DNA from: Candidatus Poribacteria bacterium
GTDB lineage: Bacteria > Poribacteria > WGA-4E > WGA-3G
Direction of reading: 5' to 3'
DNA: 64,000 nucleotides
Assembly: GCA_022825665.1 (NCBI GenBank)
Contig: JAJDWI010000080.1
Location: forward strand, 16,242-80,241
Position numbers and translations under genes: made by a program. The notes beneath the pieces are model-generated. The model saw nothing but the letters and a program-made list of their open reading frames with translations. It ran no database searches and was not told where the DNA came from. The stretch's first letter is position 1; every line of letters begins with the position of its first letter. This document shows, piece after piece, positions 3 through 8,689 of this stretch.

Positions 3-3000
3 ACTACAGCAGATAATAAATACACTATTAGCAGACTAACTTGTGGTCTATTATTAACATTCTTAGTGTTAACTTGCTTTCTGTTTTTAAATCTGTCAAT
101 TGATGCCCAGGAACCACAGCAAAACGAACAAACCCAACCTTCTGATAATGCTGATGATACAAATCAGAATTCCGATTCTGCTAAAGAAGTCTTAAATCCT
201 GAGACAATGATACCTGATCCCGATACTGTCATCGGAGATGGAGATGAGGTGATCTTACAGGATAACTTCGTGCAGATTCACGGAAATGCCCTCATCAAAT
301 TTGAAGATGTGGTTTTACGAGCAGATCACGTGTGGGCGGACTTTAACGAAAATATAATGCGTGCTGCTGGGAACGTATATCTTAAAGTTGGCAGTGAAGA
401 AACCTATTCGGACGAACTTGTTTTTAACCTTGAAACCAAGAAAGGAATTGCAAGAAACGGCTATACTTTTAGCGATCCGTGGTACTTCGGTGGAAGTGAA
501 ATTTTCAAAATTGAGGACAATAGATCCTATATCCGTGGTGGTAGCCTTACGACTTGTTCGCTTAAGTATCCACACTACCATTTTAGTGTCTCCGAAGTCA
601 TTATTAAAATGAACCAAGAGATGATTGCTAAGAATATTGTCTTACGTATAGGTGGAATACCCCTTTTCTATTTTCCAGCAATTCGACGTGATCTACGCAA
701 AGGTAAAGTGGCAAAGATTATTGTAAGAGTTGGTACAGATAGTTATCAAGGACCAAACATCGGTATTATACTGCCAATAGCACGCAAGAGACGTTATGAT
801 GGGGCACTTTTATATGATAGGAGTGCCCGTAGAGGACAAGGATACGGTTTTGAAGGAAAATATAGATTCAATGATACACAATTCAAGGAAATATATATAC
901 CTATCCCGACTGATGCAACTCCAGCACAACGTACAAAATTGGAGGAAAAGGCAAAAGAATTACATGACCGTCTTGAAGGTGATTACGATAGGTATTGGCT
1001 AAAACAGATCTTTTTTGAATATTCCATTACTGAAGAAGATGCTGAGCGTGCAAAAGAAGAAGCGGAAAATATCCTTCAACGATTGAATGAAGAAAATGCG
1101 GACTTTACACAAATTGCTCAAGCTGAATCTGACCACTCGGATACTCGGTACGACGGGGGAGATATGGGATTCATCGTTCTTGGAGAGATAGATGAAGAAG
1201 GTAATCCATTACTTGATCCGATATTAGAAGAAGCAGCGTTTGCTCTCAAGGAAGGGGAGATTAGTTCAGTATTGAGAACTGAATCTACTTTCCATATTCT
1301 CAAAGTTGAACGGGCACTTGACATATACGGTGTTCAAGAGATAAAACTCCTACGAATAGATAAAGCTATAAGTGCAAGTGATGAAACTCAGCAATCCATA
1401 CGTGCAATTGCTGATACAGTTCATGAACGTGCACTTGCTGGAGAGACATTTGAGCAACTTGCAAGTGAATTCTCTGAAGCAAAAGTATCCGAAATAAATG
1501 ATGGTGATGGATTGCCGCTAAATGAGATGGATACAAGATGGCAATATTCTGTCAGACGTATGGAAGTACCGGGAGATATAACCCAACGAAGTCCTGTTTT
1601 CTCACCAGAAGGACTATATCTTTTCCAATTAATTAAAAAAGATGAAACACCTAAGTTTGAGGAAATCGCTGAACAGTTTGAAGCAGAATGGAAAACCATT
1701 GAGACAGAGATATACGCGCCTCCTAAGGAAGGAGAAAAAACAGGCACTAATGAGCTGTCTGAGGATACTACTGAAACAGACAGTACATCACCACCTGAAT
1801 CAACTGATAATGTTGAAGTCGATACATCTTCACAACCACCTATAACAGAAGAGACTGCTGATGAAACAGAAGAATCAGTTCCAGGAGAGACAGTTGTTGG
1901 AGAGGAGGATGTAGTTGAGGAAGAGGAGTTAAAAGTCTATCGTAAACACGGTTTTCGTGGACGATGGGAAGACCCAAGACAGGTTGCATCCGAAGCACAA
2001 AGTTTGTATGCTGGGGAATACAGTAGGGTTATAGATACGAAAAAATCGTACCGAATCGTAAAAGTTGATAAGAAACGGAGTTATTACGGGGATATATATC
2101 TTTACGGTGCAGATGAGTACTCCTTTAGTAGAGATGACGCATCCCGCATCGGTAGACGTTGGAATATGCGTTGGGGACATAGGCAATCTTTCTACACACC
2201 TTGGGATAGTCGGCAGGCTGGACGTCGACCTATAAGTTTCGTTGGACGGACTGCTTGGCGTGCTATCCACTATAAAAAAGACTTAAATCTTCCAAGTGAG
2301 TCTACTCTTAACTCTTTTGGTATATTGACTTACGGTTCAGCAGTCTCTGCGTCAAGTTTAGATGATGTTGATGATGACGGGAATCTGAGATATTCCAGAG
2401 AAACTATAGGTGACATCACCAGTAGACTTGAAGTTCGTCATATTCATGATTTTTCCGGTGAGGGTAACACTTCACTTCAAAAATTACCCCAATTTACATT
2501 AAACTTCTCACGCATGCGGTTTAGTAGACTTCCAGTATTTGAGTCTATTAACGATGGACTTGTCTCTGTCTCCGAAAAGCTCAAATCAGACAAACCTATT
2601 CTCTCACTCCTTGCTTTTCCCACGCTTGAAGACACGAGTTTTGATTTGGATATAGAATTTGGTAACTTTTATAGACAAACTTATCGTGGCAAGCACGGTG
2701 AAGAGACTAATGTATTTCTACAAACACTTGATTTAGGGTTTGACCTTCGTAAACAATCCAACCTATTTATTTCACCTTTACGCGAGATAAAATTTGGTGC
2801 GAATCTCAATACAAACGCAATTTGGCACGCAAAAGATCAGGACCAAAATAGAAACATAATACGCGGTGTTTATAGCATCCGAACACAAGCAACGAATACA
2901 TTATTCCGTATCTACAATACCAGATTTATACCGGGTGTGCGTAAATTACGACATGAATTGCAGAACTCTTTAAGCTTTGATTATCAACCACCCATTGATA

Positions 3001-3758
3001 AAGATAACAACTTATATCCTTTTGGACCAAGTACTTATTTCTATGAACGTAAAAGAGTGACTTATAATTTCAATACCAATATTGAGATTAAAACCAGACG
3101 GAGTCAATCTGCACACCGTATTTTTCATTTTGATACGCGCCTAACAGCTGATTTCACAGAATTTGAATCTCTATATAGACGGAAATATGAACCAATAGAA
3201 AGTGATTTTACGATAGTCCCTCTTCCCAGTCGTAATTTAAATATGACTGTTCGTGTGACTCATGACCCAAATCCGCATCCTGAAGATGGACAAAGATTTA
3301 AGATGGTGGGCATACGGACTAATGTTAGATATACCCGTAAGAGTTGGTTTGTAAGTGTTGGCAATTCATTCAGCAAGCGACATACATCTCTACGCGCTGC
3401 ACGATCAATGACCGCAAATGGACGTTACCGTCTCAGCAAAGATCTTGAATTGGATTTTAATCTGATTTACTATCCGATTGAAGGACAATTTTATTCACAG
3501 CGCGTCAGTATCAATCGCAACCTACATGATTGGAATTTGCGTATTTCTTGGAGTCGTGTGGGAATTAAACGTGATCCACCCTTTAATAATGTCCGACAAG
3601 ACTTTACATTTCAAGTTAACTTAATCGGTGAAACTGCAGTGTCTATGGGTGTTGGTTTTGATGCGACTACCGACACGTGGGGACTCCACACATTGCCAGC
3701 TGGAGTACCGTATAATGCGTTTGGAACGGGTAATTCGCTTGGTCGTTCCTTCTTCTAA
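3..3758 (+). CDS. lptD: LPS-assembly protein LptD (OstA/LptD) with inserted parvulin-type PPIase domains; 5' end lies outside the window
   Basis: OstA-like N-terminus (VILQDNFVQIHGNALIKFEDVVLRADHVWADF), GGIPLFYFPAIR, C-terminal beta-rich barrel. PpiC-like insert (NADFTQIAQAESDHSDTRYDGGDMGFIVLGE...AFALKEGEISSVLRTESTFHILKVE). Frame is open without a stop from base 3, encoding a hydrophobic signal-like segment; the GTG at 66 would cut into it. Confidence 0.85.
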   Translation, partial: TTADNKYTISRLTCGLLLTFLVLTCFLFLNLSIDAQEPQQNEQTQPSDNADDTNQNSDSAKEVLNPETMIPDPDTVIGDGDEVILQDNFVQIHGNALIKFEDVVLRADHVWADFNENIMRAAGNVYLKVGSEETYSDELVFNLETKKGIARNGYTFSDPWYFGGSEIFKIEDNRSYIRGGSLTTCSLKYPHYHFSVSEVIIKMNQEMIAKNIVLRIGGIPLFYFPAIRRDLRKGKVAKIIVRVGTDSYQGPNIGIILPIARKRRYDGALLYDRSARRGQGYGFEGKYRFNDTQFKEIYIPIPTDATPAQRTKLEEKAKELHDRLEGDYDRYWLKQIFFEYSITEEDAERAKEEAENILQRLNEENADFTQIAQAESDHSDTRYDGGDMGFIVLGEIDEEGNPLLDPILEEAAFALKEGEISSVLRTESTFHILKVERALDIYGVQEIKLLRIDKAISASDETQQSIRAIADTVHERALAGETFEQLASEFSEAKVSEINDGDGLPLNEMDTRWQYSVRRMEVPGDITQRSPVFSPEGLYLFQLIKKDETPKFEEIAEQFEAEWKTIETEIYAPPKEGEKTGTNELSEDTTETDSTSPPESTDNVEVDTSSQPPITEETADETEESVPGETVVGEEDVVEEEELKVYRKHGFRGRWEDPRQVASEAQSLYAGEYSRVIDTKKSYRIVKVDKKRSYYGDIYLYGADEYSFSRDDASRIGRRWNMRWGHRQSFYTPWDSRQAGRRPISFVGRTAWRAIHYKKDLNLPSESTLNSFGILTYGSAVSASSLDDVDDDGNLRYSRETIGDITSRLEVRHIHDFSGEGNTSLQKLPQFTLNFSRMRFSRLPVFESINDGLVSVSEKLKSDKPILSLLAFPTLEDTSFDLDIEFGNFYRQTYRGKHGEETNVFLQTLDLGFDLRKQSNLFISPLREIKFGANLNTNAIWHAKDQDQNRNIIRGVYSIRTQATNTLFRIYNTRFIPGVRKLRHELQNSLSFDYQPPIDKDNNLYPFGPSTYFYERKRVTYNFNTNIEIKTRRSQSAHRIFHFDTRLTADFTEFESLYRRKYEPIESDFTIVPLPSRNLNMTVRVTHDPNPHPEDGQRFKMVGIRTNVRYTRKSWFVSVGNSFSKRHTSLRAARSMTANGRYRLSKDLELDFNLIYYPIEGQFYSQRVSINRNLHDWNLRISWSRVGIKRDPPFNNVRQDFTFQVNLIGETAVSMGVGFDATTDTWGLHTLPAGVPYNAFGTGNSLGRSFF

Positions 3759-4584: not shown

Positions 4585-5136
4585 ATGCCAGAGAAGACTC
4601 ACACTACAGCAGTAGTTCTCATCCCTCCAGAATCCATTCAACCGCAAATACAATCCATACGGATGAAACATGATCGTAATTATGTGCGTTGGATGCCGCA
4701 CATAACGCTCCTCTACCCGTTCACACCACAAGATATATTTCAAGAGATAATTCCATCATTGGCAAAAGTCGCTCAACAGATAAAGCCATTTTCAGTTACA
4801 TTTACATCCTTCAATGCTTTCAAACACCGTAAATCTTGCACTCTTTTCCTTGTTCCAGAACCCAAAAACAGCATCATTGATTTACATAGCAAACTCATCA
4901 AGCAGCTTCCTGACTATGATGACACAGCAAGATTTTCAGGAGGATTTAATCCTCATCTGTCAGTAGGACAATTCATACACCGAGAAATATATGAAGCACA
5001 ACAAAGACTACAAGCCGAATGGAAACCGATCCAGTACGAAGTGGAATCTATGTCACTTATATATAGGTCGTCAGAGACGAATGACAGGTTTGTCGTAGCA
5101 GAGAATTTTTACTTCATAAAAGGAGTCAAACGTTGA
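4585..5136 (+). CDS. 2'-5' RNA ligase / 2H phosphoesterase family protein
   Basis: Two H-x-T/S-type motifs: PHITLLYPF and PHLSVGQF; size about 180 aa. Confidence 0.8.
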   Translation: MPEKTHTTAVVLIPPESIQPQIQSIRMKHDRNYVRWMPHITLLYPFTPQDIFQEIIPSLAKVAQQIKPFSVTFTSFNAFKHRKSCTLFLVPEPKNSIIDLHSKLIKQLPDYDDTARFSGGFNPHLSVGQFIHREIYEAQQRLQAEWKPIQYEVESMSLIYRSSETNDRFVVAENFYFIKGVKR

Positions 5137-6505: not shown

Positions 6506-7699
6506 ATGTCGGAACAGAAGGTGTACTTAGAGAAAATTCACATCAAAAACTACCTAAGTTTACGGAATGTTGAACTTCCATTTAAACCACTGACAGTTCT
6601 TGTCGGTCCCAATGCAAGTGGTAAGACAAATGTATTGAATGCAATGAGGCTTTTCAACAGGATGATATTAGCTGAAACACCTCCTACTGTCAAAGTAATA
6701 GAAAATCGTCTGTGGGCAGGTAAAACAGACAATATTACTTTCTTGTTACACGCAAATATAAAAAAACAGCAAGTTCTATATGAGTTGAAAATCGAAGCTG
6801 CAGCTGAGAACAGTTTTTCCTACGAAAAATTAATGGTTAACGATATACAAATTATCTCAGTTCAAAATGGACTTGGAAGTATTTGTGATGAAAATGGCGA
6901 AAATGAGACAATATACAAATCGCATAAACTTGCTTTAAGTTCTATATGTAATGATGGAAACAAGACAATTACTAATACACTAATAGACTTTTTGAAAGGA
7001 TGGTATTTCTATGACTTTCAACCAGATGTCATTAGAGGATCTTTCCTTTCCTTACCTTTTGGCATGGACCCGGTAATGCCGGTTCAACCACAATGGTTTC
7101 GTATTCCTCCAAAACTCAATGAAGAAGGTTTGACACTATCAAATTTACTTATTTCTTTGCACGAAAAAGAAAAAGAACTATTTACCAACGTTAATGAATC
7201 ACTTATTGCTTCTACGGATTTCCACATAGTCTGTAATATTAATGATGAGAAAAGCAACATTTATCTCGTAGATGGGAATGAGAATCGAATTCCTTTAGAA
7301 AGAGCATCTGATGGAACATTAAGACTTCTGGCATATTATATTTTGTTAAACCAACCCGAATTACCATCGCTAATAGGTATTGAGGAACCTGAACAGAGTC
7401 TACACCCTGGTGCGTTGAAAGACATTGCTAATGTCCTTGAACAACTTGCGGAACGAACTCAGGTGATTATCACAACTCACAGTTCTCAACTCCTTGATAA
7501 TTTTGATTCTGATAGATTATCTGATTCTCTCGGTGTATTACTGTTACGCAACCGTTCTGGACTTGGTACAGAAGTACTCAATCTTGAGGAAATCAAAGAC
7601 AAACGAGAAGCACTTGACGGTTGGATTGCTGATTTCGGCATCGGTAGTGCCATTTTCGACAGTGAACTGCTACAAGACCTAATGGAGGAACCGATATGA
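6506..7699 (+). CDS. AAA family ATPase (RecF/SMC/OLD-like)
   Basis: Walker A VGPNASGKTNVL, Walker B LIGIEEPEQSLHP, TTHSSQLLD switch motif. Confidence 0.88.
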   Translation: MSEQKVYLEKIHIKNYLSLRNVELPFKPLTVLVGPNASGKTNVLNAMRLFNRMILAETPPTVKVIENRLWAGKTDNITFLLHANIKKQQVLYELKIEAAAENSFSYEKLMVNDIQIISVQNGLGSICDENGENETIYKSHKLALSSICNDGNKTITNTLIDFLKGWYFYDFQPDVIRGSFLSLPFGMDPVMPVQPQWFRIPPKLNEEGLTLSNLLISLHEKEKELFTNVNESLIASTDFHIVCNINDEKSNIYLVDGNENRIPLERASDGTLRLLAYYILLNQPELPSLIGIEEPEQSLHPGALKDIANVLEQLAERTQVIITTHSSQLLDNFDSDRLSDSLGVLLLRNRSGLGTEVLNLEEIKDKREALDGWIADFGIGSAIFDSELLQDLMEEPI

Positions 7700-8238
7700 T
7701 AAGTATTAGGGTTTGGAATGTGGAGTCTGACCATAACACAGAAGCAGTCAAGTTTTTGGAAGATGAGTTTTTGAGATCACGGCAGCTTAGACATTTGGCA
7801 ATCCGATCAGCGGGAAGGAGTGCACTTCGTAAGTGCCATAAAAAAGGCGCGCCTTTGGATGATAGTCTGAAAAAGGCAATCCAACACTACCTTAACCAAG
7901 ACGACTATATAGTTTTCATTACTGACTCTACTGATCCGAAGGTAGAAAATCAAAAACTGGTTAATCAAATAAAAAATGTTGTCAAAGATAAGGATTTCAC
8001 TGACAAAATTTATTTTGCGTCAGACATTCAAGATAGTGAATCATCAGTAAGTATAGAAGAATGGCAAAGCCTTACTTCAGAAATTCATGCTAAGGTTGAA
8101 AGTGCTCAGAATCAGTTTCAGAAAGAATGGGATAAAGTCACGACTCGTTTCCACGATGCCTTTGCTGACACACCAGAAGAAGAAGTGATACGCGATTTTG
8201 AGGAAGCACTTGCAGAGGTAAGGCGTGAACGAACATGA
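7696..8238 (+). CDS. Hypothetical protein, possibly TOPRIM/DUF4276-like, translationally coupled to the ATPase
   Basis: Overlaps ATPase stop by 4 bp and next gene start by about 14 bp; VWNVESDHNTEAVKFL and DYIVFITDSTDPK are weakly reminiscent of a TOPRIM-like fold. Confidence 0.6.
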   Translation: MISIRVWNVESDHNTEAVKFLEDEFLRSRQLRHLAIRSAGRSALRKCHKKGAPLDDSLKKAIQHYLNQDDYIVFITDSTDPKVENQKLVNQIKNVVKDKDFTDKIYFASDIQDSESSVSIEEWQSLTSEIHAKVESAQNQFQKEWDKVTTRFHDAFADTPEEEVIRDFEEALAEVRRERT

Positions 8239-8689
8239 GAACCGATGGCGTGTCTATCGGGCGACATTTGACACTCACCTTTTCGTCCGTTCACTCATTC
8301 GGAAAGACAATCTTGCTAATCGTTTGCTATCGTTATGGCAAGCTGGGAGATTCGTTCTTGTCTTATCACAGGCAATTATTGATGAAGTTCAGGAGGTTTT
8401 GTCACGTCGCAAAATGCTTCAACAATATCGTTATACATTGGACGAGGTCGCTGACCTGATAGATCTTTTGTACCAAGCAAGCATTGTTGAGATTACCTCT
8501 TCATTTGAATTATGTCGGGATGCCACCGATAACATGTTCCTTGATTGCGCTGTCTCAGGACGAGTCCAATTCTTGGTATCAACTGACAAAGATCTTATAG
8601 ATGATACCGAACTCAAGCAGGAATTATTTGAATTCGGAGTTGAGATAGTTGAACCTCCAATTTTCTTAGAAAAAATTCATGAAGGGTAA
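8225..8689 (+). CDS. PIN domain protein, putative toxin-antitoxin toxin component
   Basis: FDTHLFVRSLI ... LSQAIIDEVQEVL ... CRDATDNMFLDCAVSGRVQFLVSTDKDLI: typical PIN acidic-residue layout. Confidence 0.85.
   Translation: MNEHENRWRVYRATFDTHLFVRSLIRKDNLANRLLSLWQAGRFVLVLSQAIIDEVQEVLSRRKMLQQYRYTLDEVADLIDLLYQASIVEITSSFELCRDATDNMFLDCAVSGRVQFLVSTDKDLIDDTELKQELFEFGVEIVEPPIFLEKIHEG

Follow-up and report, generated by a model that had tools for sequence, protein, structure and literature searches.

The lptD Locus of Poribacteria

The window, by which we mean the whole 64,000-nucleotide stretch of Poribacterial DNA analyzed here, opens inside a plus-strand frame (positions 3-3758) of 1251 open codons that runs on in the 5' direction past the window edge. 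The full open frame comprises 1292 aa, and a GTG start at L001:10161 gives a protein of ~1279 aa. We identify this gene as lptD (3-3758, plus strand; 5' end upstream of the window) from its profile alignment to outgroup LptDs and its top Foldseek matches. The barrel of LptD delivers lipopolysaccharide into the outer membrane; model Gram-negatives cannot live without this slow-folding protein, which is also a drug target. As read from the sequence, the protein would begin with a leader (residues 1-76; 3-230, plus strand), in which a signal-like hydrophobic stretch is followed by low-complexity sequence. A periplasmic N-terminal OstA beta-jellyroll follows (residues 77-235; 231-707, plus strand; AlphaFold2 strands and hhalign), and then barrel strands 1-4 (residues 236-292; 708-878, plus strand; strands 171-231 in model numbering), where the outgroup alignment stops. 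Beyond a long insert, the chain continues with barrel strands 5 to ~26 (residues 690-1251; 2070-3755, plus strand), as delimited by the AlphaFold2 model, Foldseek, and hhalign.

The next gene upstream is a standalone surA. Across the phylum, the order mfd-ppiC-ppiC-surA followed by lptD recurs in most loci with enough flanking sequence, and surA adjoins lptD in E. coli as well. At four loci (L117, L118, L119, and L120), the two ppiC genes upstream of lptD apparently form one fused ORF of ~2.1-2.2 kb.

Identity of the Barrel Protein

Three independent lines of evidence (profile comparison, the AlphaFold2 model, and Foldseek) identify the product of ORF 3-3758 as the LptD of Poribacteria. A profile of 38 orthologues aligned end to end by hhalign with 15 LptDs of other phyla (probability 100, E 1e-53, 658 columns), and the match improved to E 1e-66 once residues 291-690 were removed. 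The AlphaFold2 model (mean pLDDT 78.9, pTM 0.60) contains a jellyroll and ~26 barrel strands. Its best PDB matches in Foldseek are LptDs (4q35, E 8.7e-21; 8h1r; 5iv9), as are all of the best 30 fold matches, with PPIases and SurA coming next. By query length, the TM-scores lie at a modest 0.34-0.40, in keeping with the large insert and a sequence identity of 8-9%. Among family models, PF19838 (LptD_2) scored the window protein at 20.8 bits, just below its cut-off of 22.5, and the orthologue L121 reached 35.9 bits against the curated LptD family, above the cut-off. A PF04453 profile search of the genome, too insensitive a search, returned no match. Among NCBIfam models, those of the SurA and PrsA families matched the insert, and that of the chlamydial CT351-family outer-membrane barrel matched the N-terminal part weakly.

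The Poribacterial protein thus has the N-terminal jellyroll and ~26-stranded barrel of E. coli, Shigella, and Klebsiella LptD (PF04453/PF19838), and its genome likewise carries Lpt and Lpx genes: LpxC, two LptF/G, and an LptA-like protein adjoining an LptB-like ABC ATPase and an acyltransferase-like gene, together with six Omp85 matches. It differs from known LptDs in a ~390-residue triple-parvulin insert after strand 4, in the window protein's scores below the Pfam cut-offs and, in most members, in the missing cysteine pair. No second LptD candidate was found in the window's genome, so that ORF 3-3758 is the sole LptD found there.

Parvulin Domains Inserted in the Barrel

The ~390 residues replace the turn that links barrel strand 4 to strand 5, a site at which outgroup LptDs have a short turn in the hhalign comparison; a model of a distant orthologue again places the insert after strand 4. 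The initial annotation had proposed SurA/PpiC-like parvulins within the barrel region, and Pfam, an iterated HMM, hhalign, and AlphaFold2/Foldseek all bear this out. Its placement of the insert between the N-terminal domain and most of the barrel stands, but is corrected to directly after strand 4. In E. coli LptD numbering, extracellular loop 4 goes with strand 7 (PMC6887485); given this and the periplasmic jellyroll, turns after even strands should be periplasmic, which would put the strand 4/5 insert on the periplasmic side. Barrel topology and the AlphaFold2 model therefore agree with the earlier suggestion of an insert that sits in a turn and probably faces the periplasm. The model shows barrel strand 4 extending into strand 209-231 and strand 613-637 opening barrel strand 5 (model numbering), and the strands of the outer parvulin described below appear continuous with this hairpin.

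The insert consists of two complete parvulins (P1 and P2) nested in a third, split parvulin. Pfam Rotamase (PF00639) matched with 103.5 bits (E 1.2e-29, cut-off 21.7) over two stretches, the best at residues 340-436. We mapped the domains with a parvulin HMM iterated from P1, which scored P1 (residues 329-436; 987-1310, plus strand) at 104.8 bits and the diverged P2 (residues 446-542; 1338-1628, plus strand) at 69.9 bits, upholding the prediction of one clear and one diverged domain. The same HMM gave 44.3 bits to a C-terminal part at 616-689 and 9.2 bits to an N-terminal part at 293-326; taken together, these two parts make up one whole parvulin. For a stitching test, we built an HMM from non-LptD parvulins only and joined residues 290-328 to the C half. 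The score rose in all 38 orthologues (median +7.2 bits), by more than 5 bits in 32 of them, whereas such a gain occurred in only 1 of 190 controls. The possible third half-domain of the initial annotation is thus parvulin sequence, but it belongs to a split domain as its second half; the first half lies before P1.

The first half of this outer parvulin (beta1-alpha1, residues 293-326; 879-980, plus strand) continues barrel strand 4. It covers HMM positions 4-35, is supported by the stitching, and corresponds to the model strand 209-231 and a helix at 238-256. The second half comprises a helical part (residues 549-570; 1647-1712, plus strand), seen in the 38-orthologue alignment and as model helix 483-501, and a last helix with strands (residues 646-689; 1938-2069, plus strand; HMM 27-102) that leads into barrel strand 5. 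Between them, an acidic low-complexity linker (residues 575-642; 1725-1928, plus strand) interrupts the outer parvulin. It is predicted to be disordered (model 506-573, pLDDT <50), and its omega is 0.33-0.51. The linker is present as first annotated, but is missing from the distant members L093, L110, L117, and L118, and the outer parvulin of these linker-less members has a proper GGDxGY motif. The linker is a late, weakly constrained addition. In the LptD ORFs of L077 and L111, an acidic/proline-rich low-complexity insertion interrupts P1 itself.

Against PDB sequences, the best match of the insert profile is SurA (1m5y, E 7e-15), in a single alignment that spans P1 and P2 jointly. SurA has tandem parvulins in the same order, with ~258 residues aligned. 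The alignment covers mainly the parvulins; the N/C core chaperone domain of SurA is missing from the insert, and P1-P2 are flanked instead by the outer parvulin. SurA is moreover a soluble protein, whereas these parvulins are nested in a barrel turn. Parvulins of the PpiC/PrsA/PpiD type have the Rotamase fold in common with the insert, but are free-standing or membrane-anchored enzymes rather than domains inserted in a transporter barrel. A derivation of P1 and P2 from the neighboring surA is neither favored nor dismissed by a domain tree of 103 columns, which puts them mostly in clades of their own but with weak deep forks.

Distribution and Novelty

A scan of GTDB genome contigs recovered 71 Poribacterial loci, 67 of them with a full-length single ORF, and 63 of these 67 ORFs had exactly three parvulin hits. 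Among 98 genomes searched, nearly all Poribacterial ones matched, and the few with weak or no matches were fragmented drafts. The insert is retained in every informative Poribacterial genome, and no LptD without it was seen in the phylum. The fusion thus proved to be phylum-wide when sought in related genomes as the initial annotation had advised. Its concern that the join might be an assembly chimera (or a gene-calling artefact) is set aside by the same data: the oddness of the architecture is all that speaks for it, and the 67 single-ORF copies span the phylum and come from assemblies made independently of one another, including records with chromosome titles (OY282386.1 and OX639992.1), leaving this explanation with virtually no weight.

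Outside the phylum, the matches listed from 387 genomes were LptD-only (~660-820 aa) or parvulin-only frames, and no LptD-parvulin fusion appeared among the matches listed from ~300 other bacteria. None of 18 outgroup LptDs had a parvulin hit. Within the window's genome, no other barrel protein had a Rotamase match, which points to an LptD-specific module. Such an architecture is not known to have been described, and we found no account of an LptD-parvulin fusion or of a Poribacterial LptD in the open-access literature searched. A phylum-wide LptD with a parvulin insert is thus apparently undescribed. It demonstrates that a periplasmic turn of the lipopolysaccharide gate can tolerate a large folded insertion. 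Because parvulins are here naturally fused to one defined client throughout a phylum without the SurA core, the fusion offers a clean system for what parvulins do alone, and also lets one ask if an assembly factor can be built into the very barrel that it serves.

Conservation, Cysteines, and a Second Graft

Among the 38 orthologues, P1 keeps the Asp of its GGD motif in 29 and the last His in 31, and the first His is Gln in 30; P2 and the outer parvulin have lost most motif residues. The Gln in P1 and the eroded motifs of P2 make isomerase activity doubtful, and from these residues binding seems likelier than isomerization. P1 and P2 are under purifying selection (dN/dS 0.04-0.12). The parvulin sequences do diverge faster than the jellyroll, and this, with the eroding active sites, is what one might expect of an insertion that was historically fixed and is now largely neutral, without a present role. 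We regard such neutrality as very unlikely given the selection on P1 and P2, the retention described above in every informative genome, and the extra parvulin that class-2 members carry at a second periplasmic site.

This extra parvulin occurs in the class-2 genomes (n = 2; L121 and L041/L042), in the turn that follows barrel strand 10, with its C-half preceding its N-half (in the LptDs at L121:8785-12579 and L042:1-2334). By topology, the turn should likewise be periplasmic. The L121 model has the same barrel and a matching helix-strand order at this turn, with pLDDT of 27-57 there, a low confidence that reflects coverage by one sequence only. In the main class, the turn holds a helix only (in the window protein, residues 844-859; 2532-2579, plus strand; model 775-790). 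Either a gain in class 2 or a loss in the main class may account for this distribution.

Outgroup LptDs commonly have a TTC motif in the jellyroll and an HCW motif near the C-terminus; the sites compared were residues 185 and 1176 of the window protein (P0001) and their homologues. The HCW cysteine is Asp (or Asn or Val) in all aligned Poribacterial LptDs except L121. Most of these proteins have a single cysteine and some have none; the window protein has one in its mature part, and so does not have the two E. coli-type interdomain disulfides. Two such disulfides are not universal among LptDs. Missing the C-terminal cysteine, most Poribacterial LptDs would be unable to form an E. coli-like interdomain disulfide checkpoint. 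Since the cysteine and the insert occur together in class 2, the insert did not arise from cysteine loss.

Possible Role of the Parvulin Array

Assembly of LptD in E. coli is SurA-assisted. Its folding there is slower than that of small barrels by orders of magnitude, with the C-terminus held on BamA (PMC6887485); while assembly is under way, the N-terminal half of the barrel lacks structure and is in contact with BepA, a periplasmic factor (PMC8423444). The insert is tied to this same N-terminal barrel region, which makes chaperoning in cis, or docking, the most economical reading. We infer that the parvulin array acts as a cis-acting folding or assembly module of LptD, to which we give a probability of roughly 0.5. 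The long, slow-folding barrel would be assembled on BAM with its C-terminus first; up to the closure of strands 1-5, the array would keep hold of N-terminal strands that have yet to fold, or bring in SurA or BAM, and afterwards it would stay attached to the finished translocon on the periplasmic side. Caution over the mechanism is in order, since most chaperone work and BAM binding of SurA belong to its core domain, and the roles of its parvulins have been called elusive (PMC11366764). The genome does encode a standalone SurA, along with several PpiC-like proteins. The insert is therefore no replacement for SurA, and the upstream gene overturns the initial suspicion that this genome might lack a standalone surA.

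Against chaperoning in cis stand the missing SurA core, the doubtful isomerase, and the fit of the same data to a role in the finished translocon. In this main rival, the array would be a permanent part of the mature machine and would brace, beneath the mouth of the barrel, the jellyroll, LptE, or the LptA bridge, with the parvulins serving as binding modules and doing no chaperone work. Degenerate catalytic sites, the continuity of strands 4/5 with the outer parvulin (suggesting a fixed position), and the Lpt bridge genes of the genome would suit it; we nevertheless consider it somewhat unlikely, as most orthologues retain the GGD Asp and the last His of P1, an outer-membrane protein chaperone comes first among the PDB sequence matches, and the gene lies within a parvulin/SurA cluster. 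LptE, although not found in the window's genome, scored above the cut-off in 36 of 85 Poribacteria genomes, one class-2 genome among them, so nothing needs replacing; this also makes the insert an unlikely LptE substitute.

The SurA-like tandem domains and their periplasmic position could suit an LptD that serves as an outer-membrane anchor and displays the parvulins as a hub at which other proteins, secreted or of the outer membrane, dock or are chaperoned. Such an anchor would be an odd choice when neighboring genes encode free SurA and PpiC-like proteins, and a site in an essential barrel turn would be costly; we find this reading quite unlikely.

Returning to a module that acts on its own barrel, the nearest known parallels are intramolecular chaperones such as autotransporter autochaperone regions and the subtilisin propeptide, in which a chaperone-like segment is encoded in the client. 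The putative role of the insert resembles theirs in being client-encoded, but they are neither parvulins nor barrel-turn insertions. A fuller version would be a self-chaperoning lipopolysaccharide translocon, whose parvulin array was grafted strand-to-strand onto a periplasmic barrel turn, acts in cis during BAM-dependent folding, replaces the disulfide checkpoint lost by most members, and in one class spread to another turn as well; we think it unlikely that all of these parts hold together.

Other Genes in the Window

Two further groups of genes were noticed from their translations. A small ORF at 4585-5136 resembles the 2'-5' RNA ligase family and is flanked by an SDR gene and a gene for an ABC-type substrate-binding protein. 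At 6506-8689, genes for an OLD/RecF-like ATPase, a small partner protein, and a PIN-like protein are adjacent or overlapping, and possibly form a defense or toxin-antitoxin-like set.
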